This document shows, piece after piece, positions 56,755-59,555 of a stretch of 64,000 bases of DNA. Under the pieces are notes generated by a model. It was not told the origin of the DNA. It did no database searches and worked only from the letters and a program-made list of their open reading frames with translations. Every line of letters begins with the position of its first letter. Position 1 is the stretch's first letter. The DNA is from Promicromonospora sp. MEB111. Lineage in GTDB: Bacteria > Actinomycetota > Actinomycetes > Actinomycetales > Cellulomonadaceae. A program made the translations under genes and the position numbers. The DNA is taken from contig NZ_JARVSD010000007.1 in assembly GCF_030209445.1 (NCBI RefSeq), forward strand, positions 372,001 through 436,000, in the 5' to 3' direction.

Positions 56755-57390
56755 TCAGCCGCCCGCGACCATGCTGACGAACAGCCCGTGCACGCGCGCG
56801 TCCCCCGTGATCTCGGGGTGGAAGGCGGTGGCGAGCAGCGACCCCTGCCGTGCTGCGACAATCCTACCGGCGGCCGCCACAGGACGGCCTTGCGTATCCA
56901 CAGCCGGGATGCGGGACAGCACCTCGACCTCGGGCCCGGCCTCCTCGATCCAGGGGGCGCGGATGAACGCGGTACGCACCGGGCCGCCGTCGCCGACGTC
57001 GGAGATCCCCGCGAAGTCGAGGTCGGTCTCGAACGAGTCGACCTGCCGCCCGAACGCGTTGCGCCGGACGACGACGTCCATGCCGCCGACGGTCTGCTGG
57101 TCGGCGGTCCCGTCCAGGATCCGGTCGGCGAGCAGGATCATCCCCGCGCACGAGCCGTACACCGGCAGACCCTCCTTGATGCGGGCCTGCAGCAGGTCGC
57201 GGAGCTCGAAGATGCGCAGCAGCTTGTCGATCGTCGTCGACTCGCCGCCGGGCAGCACGAGCCCGTCGACCGCCGCCAGCTCCCCCGGCCGACGCACGGT
57301 CACGCCGTGCGCCCCCGCGGACTCGAGGGCGGCCAGGTGCTCGCGGACGTCACCCTGCAGGGCCAGGACGCCGATGGTCGGGTTGCTCAC
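56755..57390 (-). CDS. pdxT: pyridoxal 5'-phosphate synthase glutaminase subunit PdxT
   Basis: 211 aa class I glutaminase that feeds ammonia to PdxS for PLP synthesis. [15 protein letters not shown] at the N-terminus, [13 protein letters not shown], the nucleophile Cys in [15 protein letters not shown], and the His-Glu of [10 protein letters not shown] complete the triad. The GTG start has TAGAAT 8 nt upstream. The synthase partner pdxS, often nearby, is not in the window; the upstream neighbour is instead an Abi_2-family gene. Confidence 0.95.
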
Positions 57391-57398
57391 AACCGTTC

Positions 57399-57404
57399 AT
57401 TCTA
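57399..57404 (-). promoter_or_regulatory. -10 box of pdxT
   Basis: TAGAAT, 8 nt before GTG 57390. Confidence 0.45.
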
Positions 57405-57497
57405 CGGCGGCGGCCGACAGACCTGGGACGTCACCGGCTGTGCCCCCGCAGGGGAACAGCGGCAGACGAGCGGCCCATGACCTGTTGGCCCGCTGCT

Positions 57498-58472
57498 CTA
57501 CGACATCAGATCAGCCCACTCGGCCGGGAATCCCATGTCGGCGAGACTGACCACCCCGTCCGCAGGGAAGTCGGAGAGCAGGCGCACCAGCTCGGCCTTC
57601 CAGTCGCCGTCCATCGAGACCTTCTCCATCAGGAAGCACAGCACCATCAGCGCCGGGTAGAACCGGGCACGATCGCGGTGCTCAAGCCCGGCGAGATGCT
57701 TGAGCCCCTTGATCCCCTGCAGCGCCGACACACGCACGGTGTCCGTGAAGTGCCGGTTCCAGAGCCGCGCGTGGTGCGCGCACGTGTTCCGGGCGATGTT
57801 CAAGGTTCTGAGCCAGTTGGCGAGGACCGCCCCGTCGCCGGCGCCCGTCCGGTCGACGACGTCGAGCCGGCGGGCGATCTCGTCACGGTCGCGCCGCTTG
57901 AGCCCCTGGAAGAGCACCGAGAGCGCGCCGAAGTCCAGGACCTCCAGAGCTGCCCAGATCGGCAGGTCGCCTCCGTACTTCCGGCCGTAGTGCGCCACGT
58001 ACTCCTCGGACGACCGGGCCTGGTGTGCGCGAAGCTTGCCCACCCAGCTCGCGTGCCGCGACGGCCGGCCCTGACCGGACGTGGAGAAGCGCGTCTCGAG
58101 GTGCCCGGGATCGAGGTGTGCGAACGGTCCGCGACGGCCCAGGACATCGGTCACCTTCACCCGGATCGCCACCTCGATCCGCTCGATGGCGTCCATCGTC
58201 AGAAGCTTGAGCCGACGATCGAACTCGTACACCCGCAGCACCTGGTTCAGGTCCGTGCCCGGGCCTACGTCGGCAGTGCGCACAGGGCGGCCGTGGCGGG
58301 ACGAAGCGGCCTGGTCGATGACACGGTAGGGATACCAGTAGCCGCTGAGGCGGTGATAGCCGATCTGGCCCAGCGCGAACACGCACGACGCGTCGTCGAG
58401 CCGCATGCCGCGTCGTCTCAGCAGGGCTTCCTGCTGCAGGATCGACAGGTGCGGCTTCAGGTACCGGGACAT
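57498..58472 (-). CDS. Abi_2 (AbiD/AbiF-type) HEPN protein
   Basis: 324 aa. The family pattern is clear: VFALGQIGYHRLSGYWYPYR (31-50), YEFDRRLKLLTMDAIERIEV (82-101), PIWAALEVLDFGALSVLFQG (171-190) and the HEPN ribonuclease motif R-x4-H at Arg228-His233 (ARNTCAHHARLWN). Such proteins act in abortive infection or as RNA-targeting toxins, and AbiF-type members are known to be preceded by a conserved noncoding RNA. Here a sigma70-like promoter and structured leader precede the gene. ATG 58472 has AGGAAG 4-5 nt upstream. The gene interrupts the housekeeping block beside pdxT and looks less GC-rich than its neighbours, suggesting acquisition. Confidence 0.85.
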   Translation of the reverse strand: MSRYLKPHLSILQQEALLRRRGMRLDDASCVFALGQIGYHRLSGYWYPYRVIDQAASSRHGRPVRTADVGPGTDLNQVLRVYEFDRRLKLLTMDAIERIEVAIRVKVTDVLGRRGPFAHLDPGHLETRFSTSGQGRPSRHASWVGKLRAHQARSSEEYVAHYGRKYGGDLPIWAALEVLDFGALSVLFQGLKRRDRDEIARRLDVVDRTGAGDGAVLANWLRTLNIARNTCAHHARLWNRHFTDTVRVSALQGIKGLKHLAGLEHRDRARFYPALMVLCFLMEKVSMDGDWKAELVRLLSDFPADGVVSLADMGFPAEWADLMS

Positions 58473-58534
58473 GGCGCTTCCTCGAGATTGCGGCCGGTTG
58501 AGGCTTGGGCAGTCGCAGGGACGTCGAAGGTCCC

Positions 58535-58660
58535 GCTCACTGGCTTCTCGAGGATAGGAGTGCTTCCGCAAATCCTCTAGGCGAAAGCGTGATGGCCGAG
58601 GACGGAGACACATGAAGACCGGCCCGTGATCGCTAGGCGATCAGAGGGACCGGTCGTGTT
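58535..58660 (-). ncRNA. candidate structured RNA upstream of the Abi_2 gene
   Basis: Expected to start near 58660 from the promoter at 58667-58695. Hairpin 1 (58617-58655) begins about 5 nt into the RNA: GACCGG/CCGGTC, CCC/GGG and TGATCGC/GCGATCA stems (16 bp) with a 3-nt loop. Hairpin 2 pairs 58581-58588 with 58562-58569 (one G-U). A third small stem GGGAC/GTCCC lies at 58518-58534. No open frame with a ribosome site fills this leader. Position fits the antitoxin-type RNA known before AbiF-family genes; the 3' end is a guess. Confidence 0.5.
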
Positions 58661-58666
58661 ACCTCA

Positions 58667-58695
58667 ATTCTACGGGGAGCTCCGGCGTGACGCAA
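58667..58695 (-). promoter_or_regulatory. sigma70-type promoter of the Abi RNA/gene
   Basis: -35 TTGCGT (58690-58695), 17-nt spacer, -10 TAGAAT (58667-58672). The best-formed -35/-10 pair seen in the window. Confidence 0.7.
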
Positions 58696-58719
58696 CGGAC
58701 GCACCGCGGCTCGGCGGGC

Positions 58720-59367
58720 TCAGTCGTCGTGCTGCTCACCCAGGTGGCGGACCTCGCCGTCCCAGCCGGCCACCAGGTGGTCGATGACCTCCGGCAGCTC
58801 CGGCGGGAACACCTCCAGCGGCTGCGCCCGCAGCTCCGCCGCCGTCAGCCAGGCCATCTCGTCGAGCAGCTCGCGCTCGGCGTCGGTCCAGCCGTCGGCG
58901 GTGACCTCGATGGCGTCCGGGATGCGGGCGAAGTAGAAGACCTCGTACTGCCGGCACGTCTCGGCGAAGAAGTCGAAGATGCCCGTCCGCGTGAGCACGG
59001 GCCCCACCAGTGCTCCGTCAGGGAGGTCGATGCCCACCTCCTCGCGGGTCTCGCGCTGTGCAGCCTGGACCGGCGTCTCCCCCGCGTCGATGCCGCCGCC
59101 CACCGTGAACCACCAGGACCGTTCCGGCTGGTTGACATCGTGCCCGCGCATGACGAGCACCCGGCCGGTGTCGTCCATGAGCAGGACGCGCGCCGCCGAG
59201 CGCTCGCGGACGCCGTCCGGCCCAGGCACCCAGTCGTCCCCGAGGGACGTGGTGCCGGGCCCGACGGCCGACGGCGCGACGGCCGTCGGCGCGACTACTG
59301 ACGGCCCAGGCGCTGACGGCGCGGCAGGCCGGTGCTGGTCGGAGGTCTCCGGCGGGTGACCCGTCAT
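58720..59367 (-). CDS. NUDIX hydrolase
   Basis: 215 aa. The Nudix box GGIDAGETPVQAAQRETREEVG (G-x5-E-x7-R-E-x2-E-E) is complete. A 55-residue Pro/Ala/Thr-rich N-terminus precedes the fold (RSAARVLLMDDTGRVLVMRG, WWFTVGGG). The C-terminal part (WLTAAELRAQPLEVFPPELP) is typical of actinobacterial NUDIX proteins of unknown substrate. ATG 59367 has GAGGAG 8-9 nt upstream. The 188 nt beyond it toward hrpB hold no gene. Confidence 0.88.
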   Translation of the reverse strand: MTGHPPETSDQHRPAAPSAPGPSVVAPTAVAPSAVGPGTTSLGDDWVPGPDGVRERSAARVLLMDDTGRVLVMRGHDVNQPERSWWFTVGGGIDAGETPVQAAQRETREEVGIDLPDGALVGPVLTRTGIFDFFAETCRQYEVFYFARIPDAIEVTADGWTDAERELLDEMAWLTAAELRAQPLEVFPPELPEVIDHLVAGWDGEVRHLGEQHDD

Positions 59368-59555
59368 GCGGTGTGCTCCTCGTGCTGAGCGTCTGAGTGC
59401 TGGCGATTCGGGGGGCCGGACGTCCCCTGCGGACGGTCCGGTGCCCACAACGTACCGTCCGCGACCCGCCCGGCGTCCGCCCTGCCACGCTCATCGGCCC
59501 GGCGCCGACACGGCAGGCTGCCCGCGGGTGCCGCCGCGCGGCGCAGAGGAGGTAC

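Follow-up and report, generated by a model that had tools for sequence, protein, structure and literature searches.

Does the Abi_2-type gene that lies beside pdxT in Promicromonospora sp. MEB111 form, with the DNA ahead of it, a complete unit of HEPN toxin and RNA antitoxin, as a preliminary description of the sequence had proposed? The locus is part of a 64,000-nucleotide stretch of contig NZ_JARVSD010000007.1 (hereafter the window), and all the features discussed below are on the minus strand. In Clostridioides difficile, an AbiF homologue requires R202 and H207 for toxicity and is neutralised in cis and in trans by its leader RNA, RCd22, according to PMC12373285. Here, we examined the Abi_2 gene, its leader and the surrounding junction in related genomes, and followed RNAs of the same kind into viral sequences.

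The Abi_2 gene and its HEPN motif

The gene (57498..58472) is intact and full-length, running from an ATG at 58472 to a TAG stop at 57500-57498, and encodes 324 amino acids. Its product matches Pfam Abi_2 with an E-value of 7.9e-49 (166.9 bits for a cut-off of 25.6) and PADLOC AbiD with an E-value of 1.7e-52, while a search of the protein against NCBIfam returned no family. The only relative in the PDB at an E-value of 1 or less is 8vz6, a solved AbiF protein that aligns by sequence over residues 4-320 (E = 3.4e-30). The motif R-N-T-C-A-H at residues 228-233 provides the R-x4-H signature of HEPN proteins, which bears out the earlier claim of an Abi_2-type protein with an Arg228-His233 motif. 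Across 38 aligned sequences, R228, N229 and A232 never vary and at least 90% have H233; the window protein keeps every invariant column, and the third-position GC within its gene is 0.89.

The leader hairpin and its relatives

Upstream of the gene, positions 58612..58660 are predicted to fold into a bulged hairpin. The sequence AACAC (58660-58656) precedes a 9-bp helix, P1 (58655-58647 with 58625-58617), a CUC/C bulge and a 7-bp helix, P3 (58643-58637 with 58633-58627), and a UUCAU tail follows. The initial 48 nt past the likely start have a minimum free energy of -27.7 kcal/mol (z = -6.40), equalled by 0 of 200 shuffles. The 16-bp hairpin previously noticed about 5 nt into the transcript is hence found again, as 9 + 7 bp around a bulge.

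Hairpins occur at the equivalent place before Abi_2 genes nearly throughout the same family, the order and other phyla; they are preceded by a -10-like box and a 5' end rich in A and C, and most of them stop shortly before the Shine-Dalgarno and start codon. Several leader shapes can be distinguished. The window type consists of outer helix, CUCU, variable inner hairpin, outer helix and UUUUC; others are devoid of CUCU, and L111 and L112 bear the classical abiF motif. Most relatives display a U-tract behind the hairpin; the window has just UCUUCAUGU, and a terminator scan listed no site there. Seven loci (L099, L101, L103, L205, L208, L209 and L212) carry Abi_2 in frames of 527-559 amino acids with a hairpin type of their own; the C-terminal part of the L099 protein has no Pfam name, and SAM riboswitches are present in the L099 and L103 loci.

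Covariation was counted in an alignment, A1, of 16 window-type leaders, whose rows were hand-picked for a visible hairpin and whose structure was drawn by eye before counting. In this set, 92.0% of the cells are paired, versus 26-45% in slid registers. Eight of 15 pairs changed on both sides, a figure reached by 17 of 500 shuffles, and double changes amount to 37 cells against 11.5 in shuffles, with 0 of 500 shuffles reaching the observed value. The covariation and the retention of a leader at the equivalent place in relatives both support the proposed reading as a probable unit of RNA and HEPN protein, and comparison with these relatives points to a structured RNA directly upstream of Abi_2, presumably made from its own promoter.

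The Rfam check that the preliminary description had suggested was negative: the abiF RNA model RF03085 matched nothing in positions 57000-59500 or in the window locus as extracted for the comparison (L083), and nothing rose above its cut-off over the whole genome of the strain. A single hit in the leader search lay elsewhere and was dismissed as chance. RF03085 passes only one of 19 actinobacterial loci (18 Abi_2 loci and one scar), namely L111 at 41.3 bits, with L112 failing, and, in a second set of 13 Abi_2 loci that includes 11 from other phyla, two (L013 and L014); because of this low recovery, we think that the model spans the classical form only and misses the window leader for that reason. 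At the window-equivalent place in the same family, L111 shows the Rfam form and L112 comes close to it, so that the classical abiF motif does occur at the leader position there. The window leader shares with RF03085 its position before Abi_2, the CUCU, an outer G+C helix and an A/C-rich 5' end; it differs by the fusion of outer and inner helix into one and by its long, variable P3 hairpin. We read it as a divergent abiF-type antitoxin or attenuator RNA, and since it failed the covariance-model test it should not be placed in RF03085.

Linkage of the hairpin to Abi_2 genes

A covariance model, R1, was built from the 16 rows of A1 and run over 221 genomes of the family. It yielded 18 hits of at least 40 bits, of which 16 lie directly upstream of Abi_2, one at a scar in a congener (G192, described below) and one is an orphan. 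The model itself already contained 15 of these 18 as rows, the three new ones being two Abi_2 leaders and the orphan, and one model row (L089) was not recovered by the scan, which used strict filters. The window hairpin scores 59.5 bits, as one of R1's own rows. The orphan, L178 (G133:C1:3020833-3020894), is a window-type hairpin in a genome in which no Abi_2 was found; it could belong to a prophage or be a scar.

Over 396 genomes of the order, R1 returned five rows of at least 30 bits outside the family and seven under 30 bits. Three of the former precede Abi_2 (two in G466, one in G541), a fourth, in G317, stands ahead of an Abi_2 gene that is split by a transposase gene of the Mutator type, and at the last place, in G226, there is no Abi_2, perhaps a four-residue remnant. 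At the split locus (L222, G317:C28 120905 onward) the transposase gene interrupts Abi_2 shortly behind an intact leader hairpin. Among the R1 hits below 30 bits, those in G055, G167 and G177 were inspected and judged to be chance, and that in G199 proved on inspection to be a true leader. In a set of 41 loci, one of which (L003) is nearly a model row, all 13 matches at an E-value of 0.5 or better fall at Abi_2 leaders, two of them on the opposite strand.

Promoter-like boxes

The promoter described earlier as consensus-like comprises a -35-like box, TTGCGT (58690..58695), that is weak (3 of 6 matches to the consensus), and a -10-like box, TAGAAT (58667..58672), that ends 11 nt before the hairpin. 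Both boxes and their 17-nt spacing are present; the likeness to the consensus amounts to only 8 of 12 matches, and a promoter scan of the window lists nothing at the leader because it demands nine. The -10-like element recurs in relatives: a TANNNT box stands 10-13 nt before the leader helix in 52 of 52 actinobacterial leaders, with distances of 7-15 nt accepted by the test, versus 583 of 26297 background places (2.2%). These 52 leaders derive from 30 family loci minus L102 and L110, in which the match begins inside the gene, and 26 loci of the order minus L213 and L214, which are copies of L212.

The spacer and the predicted stem at the Shine-Dalgarno

A long spacer (58473..58611) separates the hairpin from the ATG and, among the loci measured, is found at the window locus alone: the hairpin lies 139 nt from the protein match in the window versus 14-75 nt in 24 other family loci. 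The 140-nt spacer stretch folds slightly better than shuffles (z = -1.81). A fold prediction pairs a 5' arm (58546..58554) with a 3' arm (58479..58487) that holds the Shine-Dalgarno GAGGA (58483-58479, 6 nt before the ATG), in a 9-bp stem (58554-58546 with 58487-58479) with pairing probabilities of 0.9-1.0; a stem that long arises at the Shine-Dalgarno in 13 of 1000 shuffles. The second stem of 8 bp noticed earlier does exist, with 9 bp rather than 8, while its reading as part of the leader finds no echo, no counterpart having been seen in the leaders of relatives. The long spacer with its predicted covering stem is thus peculiar to the window locus, and we suggest with low confidence that the stem might act as a second lock, on translation.

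The roughly 190 nt ahead of the gene were said to hold no coding frame. In strict terms the Abi_2 frame is open upstream to an ATG at 58613; its third-position GC is 0.55 there against 0.89 in the gene, and the extension is therefore probably not coded. This value, together with the lack of a Shine-Dalgarno before ATG 58613, led us to discard an N-terminally extended protein. An origin of the spacer from a repeat was likewise set aside, as the genome of the strain holds no second copy. Compared with the 221 family genomes, the matches listed for the spacer comprise only the 118 nt of promoter and hairpin in G192, the others being of about 50 nt at most.

The pdxT-NUDIX junction

The unit is bordered upstream by a NUDIX gene (58720..59367; Pfam NUDIX, E = 3.5e-21) and downstream by pdxT of the SNO family (56755..57390; Pfam SNO, E = 1.8e-54). 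Both genes are found in all 13 genomes of the genus, that of the strain included, the NUDIX gene as a close match in each. At the junction itself, the Abi_2 gene is missing in the 12 other genomes, one of which holds a scar. Measured between protein matches, the gap lacks the unit and shrinks to 51 nt (G187) or 49 nt (G189) in two genomes; in nine further ones it is filled by other DNA, 185 to about 5400 nt long, with no Abi_2 match in these gaps. The site beside pdxT is thus a variable junction. In G195, the junction (L128) harbors the remnant of a PIN-domain (VapC-like) gene (E = 2.2e-8), and the site has therefore received toxin-antitoxin-like genes more than once.

The scar in G192 (L127/L123, G192:C1:3017029-3017246) retains the NUDIX end, the promoter and the hairpin (83% identity over 118 nt, E = 3.9e-26), while Abi_2 is reduced to roughly its twelve final codons, which contain a one-base shift. 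Compared with the window, 45 of 49 hairpin positions are identical versus 41 of 64 in the spacer before the hairpin, and from a reading of the two sequences both changes in P1 preserve pairing. Because the hairpin is better kept than the spacer and its changed helix positions still pair, G192 appears to have lost the toxin gene and retained the RNA, as would be expected of an antitoxin. The same genome encodes a second Abi_2 elsewhere, 55% identical to that of the window and with its own hairpin. The NUDIX and pdxT genes of G187, with its tight junction, resemble those of the window at least as much as those of G192 do, which is compatible both with a single gain of the unit followed by loss and with repeated gains.

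Solo RNAs in viral contigs and named phages

Two exact patterns of the window RNA type retrieved nine loci from IMG/VR, which score 40.7-46.8 bits with R1 and whose hairpins are intact by construction, since the patterns require an intact 3' arm. Abi_2 is present in the retrieved sequence of L233 and L236 alone, the other seven being devoid of it. L235 and L237 appear to be one phage, with a promoter that looks consensus-like by eye, and in L240 the RNA follows a tRNA-Asn. PHROGs comparisons identified a terminase in L240, a terminase and a portal in L241, a tail-fibre match in L237 and a family of unknown function in L239; the proteins tried from L234 and L238 gave no match, and these two are viral by the collection label. 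A further pattern, AMACACCGGCCCCTCTG, returned five more viral loci (six places, L242-L246) with no R1-like closing 3' arm, which were not counted. Of two phage hairpins of the window type compared with named phages by BLAST, one had no match and the other a single short, weak one in a Curtobacterium phage.

The classical core ACGCCTCTCAACGATGCGCA was located in 102 viral contig stretches; 80 of them, representing 71 distinct contexts, were examined. An HMM built from the 38-sequence alignment detected Abi_2 within 700 nt downstream in one of the 80 loci; another 71 have none there, and the remaining eight have under 500 nt left downstream, too short to tell. Anywhere in the retrieved viral sequences, it found Abi_2 in L233, L236 and L314 alone, even at an E-value of 10. 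The same HMM recognized Abi_2 in 89 of 89 control loci outside its building set, which had themselves been found by similarity to the window protein. As a bacterial control, a nearly identical core occurs three times in 396 Actinomycetota genomes, and in all three cases an Abi_2 frame follows immediately (E = 9.9e-94, 1.3e-74 and 5.5e-9). The outer helix reaches at least 5 bp in 70 of 78 usable phage loci, and in 57 of 64 distinct sequences; swapping the 3' flanks among loci 500 times left 16.6 such sequences on average and 25 at most. As far as these pairings tell, the helix is real in most phage loci, and the remainder may be chance or decayed.

Sixteen regions of named phages, each of 3-5 kb, were chosen among BLAST hits to the classical hairpin, so that the ten that reach the gathering score of RF03085 give no prevalence. 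The positive regions come from the Aeromonas phages PZL-Ah8, T7-Ah and PT2, Salicola phage CGphi29, Synechococcus phages S-SZBM1 and S-CREM1, mycobacteriophages Thibault, Baka and Wanda, and Rhizobium phage RHEph21, T7-like phages thus included; Pasto, Pan2, Bajun, Chymera, RW and Sisko stay below the gathering score. No region of the 16 gave a match to the Abi_2 HMM. In S-CREM1 a tRNA follows the RNA after 4 nt, and in S-SZBM1 the RNA has tRNAs on both sides. RHEph21 and the mycobacteriophages have tRNA genes some distance behind the RNA, which in Baka and Wanda overlaps the beginning of a gene annotated as hypothetical. In the Aeromonas phages that are T7-like, the RNA separates the connector gene from the capsid-assembly gene. 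Altogether, L234, L235, L237-L241, L247-L326 and the phage regions L349-L363 carry RNAs of the abiF type, many of them without Abi_2, as candidate decoy antitoxins.

Discussion

We consider it probable, at about 80%, that the gene and its leader together make up a complete unit of the AbiF type (RNA-antitoxin, type III-like). The direct evidence consists of the gene, its motif, the predicted structure, the covariation, the linkage of hairpin and Abi_2, and the variable junction. That the leader would work like an abiF RNA is well supported by its position, its structure, this linkage and the solo copy retained in G192. On the other side stand the missing RF03085 match, the weak promoter, the poor U-tract, the one R1 orphan, the second stem without counterpart, and the composition of the R1 hits, 15 of 18 being model rows with L089 unrecovered.

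We infer the following course of events. Transcription would begin at about 58660, and the bulged hairpin would be made first, resembling an abiF antitoxin RNA with outer and inner helices merged. Some transcripts would end or be processed behind the hairpin and release a free RNA, with the others continuing into the Abi_2 mRNA; given the weak U-tract (UCUUCAUGU), the stem over the Shine-Dalgarno may add translational repression. The RNA would bind an Abi_2 homodimer and hold its HEPN RNase (R228, H233) off. Upon phage takeover the RNA supply would be cut, and the toxin thus freed would cleave RNA and arrest growth as a defence.

Part of these data could also be explained if the hairpin were solely a transcription attenuator of the Abi_2 gene, acting in cis and binding no protein. 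Most relatives' hairpins do end in a U-tract just before the Shine-Dalgarno and start codon, and in a crude test terminator-like shapes preceded 50 of 54 Abi_2 genes versus 29 of 222 starts of other ORFs, and appeared in 142 of 540 shuffles, although the test missed the window itself, whose hairpin falls outside the 170 nt scanned, and its top-scoring stem in L087, L112 and L211 was a different stem. We nonetheless consider this explanation unlikely: a terminator has no use for the recurrent CUCU bulge and AACAC 5' end, the hairpin is retained at the G192 scar despite no working gene being left, such RNAs occur without Abi_2 in phages, and RCd22 works in trans (PMC12373285). Far less probable still is a terminator of the NUDIX gene that precedes Abi_2 by chance. 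The hairpin lies about 65 nt past the NUDIX stop, and in G190 a different hairpin, with an outer helix that by eye is somewhat similar, stands right behind NUDIX; yet hairpins of the window kind precede Abi_2 at unrelated loci, and R1 finds them at the NUDIX-pdxT junctions of the window and the G192 scar alone in the genus, G190 being negative. We rejected this terminator on the linkage with Abi_2.

It is also conceivable that the unit is decaying, the spacer being debris that parts leader from gene and the regulation or expression of the toxin, unlike that of relatives, being lost. The spacer is indeed peculiar to the window, folds only slightly better than shuffles (z = -1.81) and has an open frame that is not coding-like, and the sister locus in G192 lacks the gene. 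Against this, the gene is full-length, with every invariant column kept and a third-position GC of 0.89, the Shine-Dalgarno is well spaced, and a covering stem of that length is matched by just 13 of 1000 shuffles, so we give decay little credence and retain the reading as an AbiF-type unit.

The closest described counterpart is AbiF-RCd22 of the C. difficile phage phi027, in which an Abi_2 protein with an RNxCAH motif is likewise preceded by a leader RNA with its own promoter; gene expression by readthrough is established there, as we suppose for the window, and RCd22 measures 98-132 nt, with two abiF motifs and a terminator (PMC12373285). The window differs by its single hairpin, the absence of an RF03085 match, the weak U-tract and the stem covering the Shine-Dalgarno. 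The closest solved protein, 8vz6, is PbAbiF from a Prevotellaceae member with its ncRNA, AbiFr, as stated in PMC12737573, and was compared with the window system by its protein.

For the solo RNAs, we lean towards a role as decoys, by which phages carrying the antitoxin RNA without the toxin would neutralise host AbiF during infection as a counter-defence. This proposal would span the classical and the divergent actinobacterial solo RNAs, found in tRNA arrays or between virion genes, and it assumes stems that appear to be kept by compensating changes. The T7-like Aeromonas phages are, as relatives of T7, presumably strictly lytic; such a phage has no toxin of its own to restrain, and a decoy for host AbiF would therefore be the simplest use of the RNA. 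Two points count against it: related phages do not provide independent copies, and Abi_2 genes do occur in certain phages (55 records by tblastn, mostly Streptococcus phages). In the case of ToxIN and the pseudo-ToxI of phage PhiTE, toxin and RNA reportedly differ from those of AbiF and escape mutants are said to have been selected, unlike the phage abiF RNAs, which sit in many natural phage sequences. That pair is a precedent for a phage RNA mimicking a type III antitoxin (PMC3475682). For S-CREM1, the abiF RNA is presented as an Rfam match common to bacteria and three other Rfam phages, and the accessible sections mention no decoy role (PMC9964418), while a 2025 review calls the role of phage abiF RNA unconfirmed (PMC12197685). 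In a search of largely open-access literature, read in part, we found no paper proposing phage abiF RNA as a decoy or describing an actinobacterial abiF-type form.

AbiF has been described as the ancestor of Cas13, and its RNA antitoxin as groundwork for the guide RNA that came later (PMC12737573). The window is a known AbiF-type unit with a divergent leader RNA, and the solo RNAs of phages are the more surprising result. A divergent RNA class of Actinomycetota that the Rfam model misses would represent a second solution of AbiF protein-RNA recognition. If it is true that phages bear the antitoxin alone, this would be a widespread RNA-based counter-defence, testable with isolated phages, and the decoy role would give phage abiF RNA a function.
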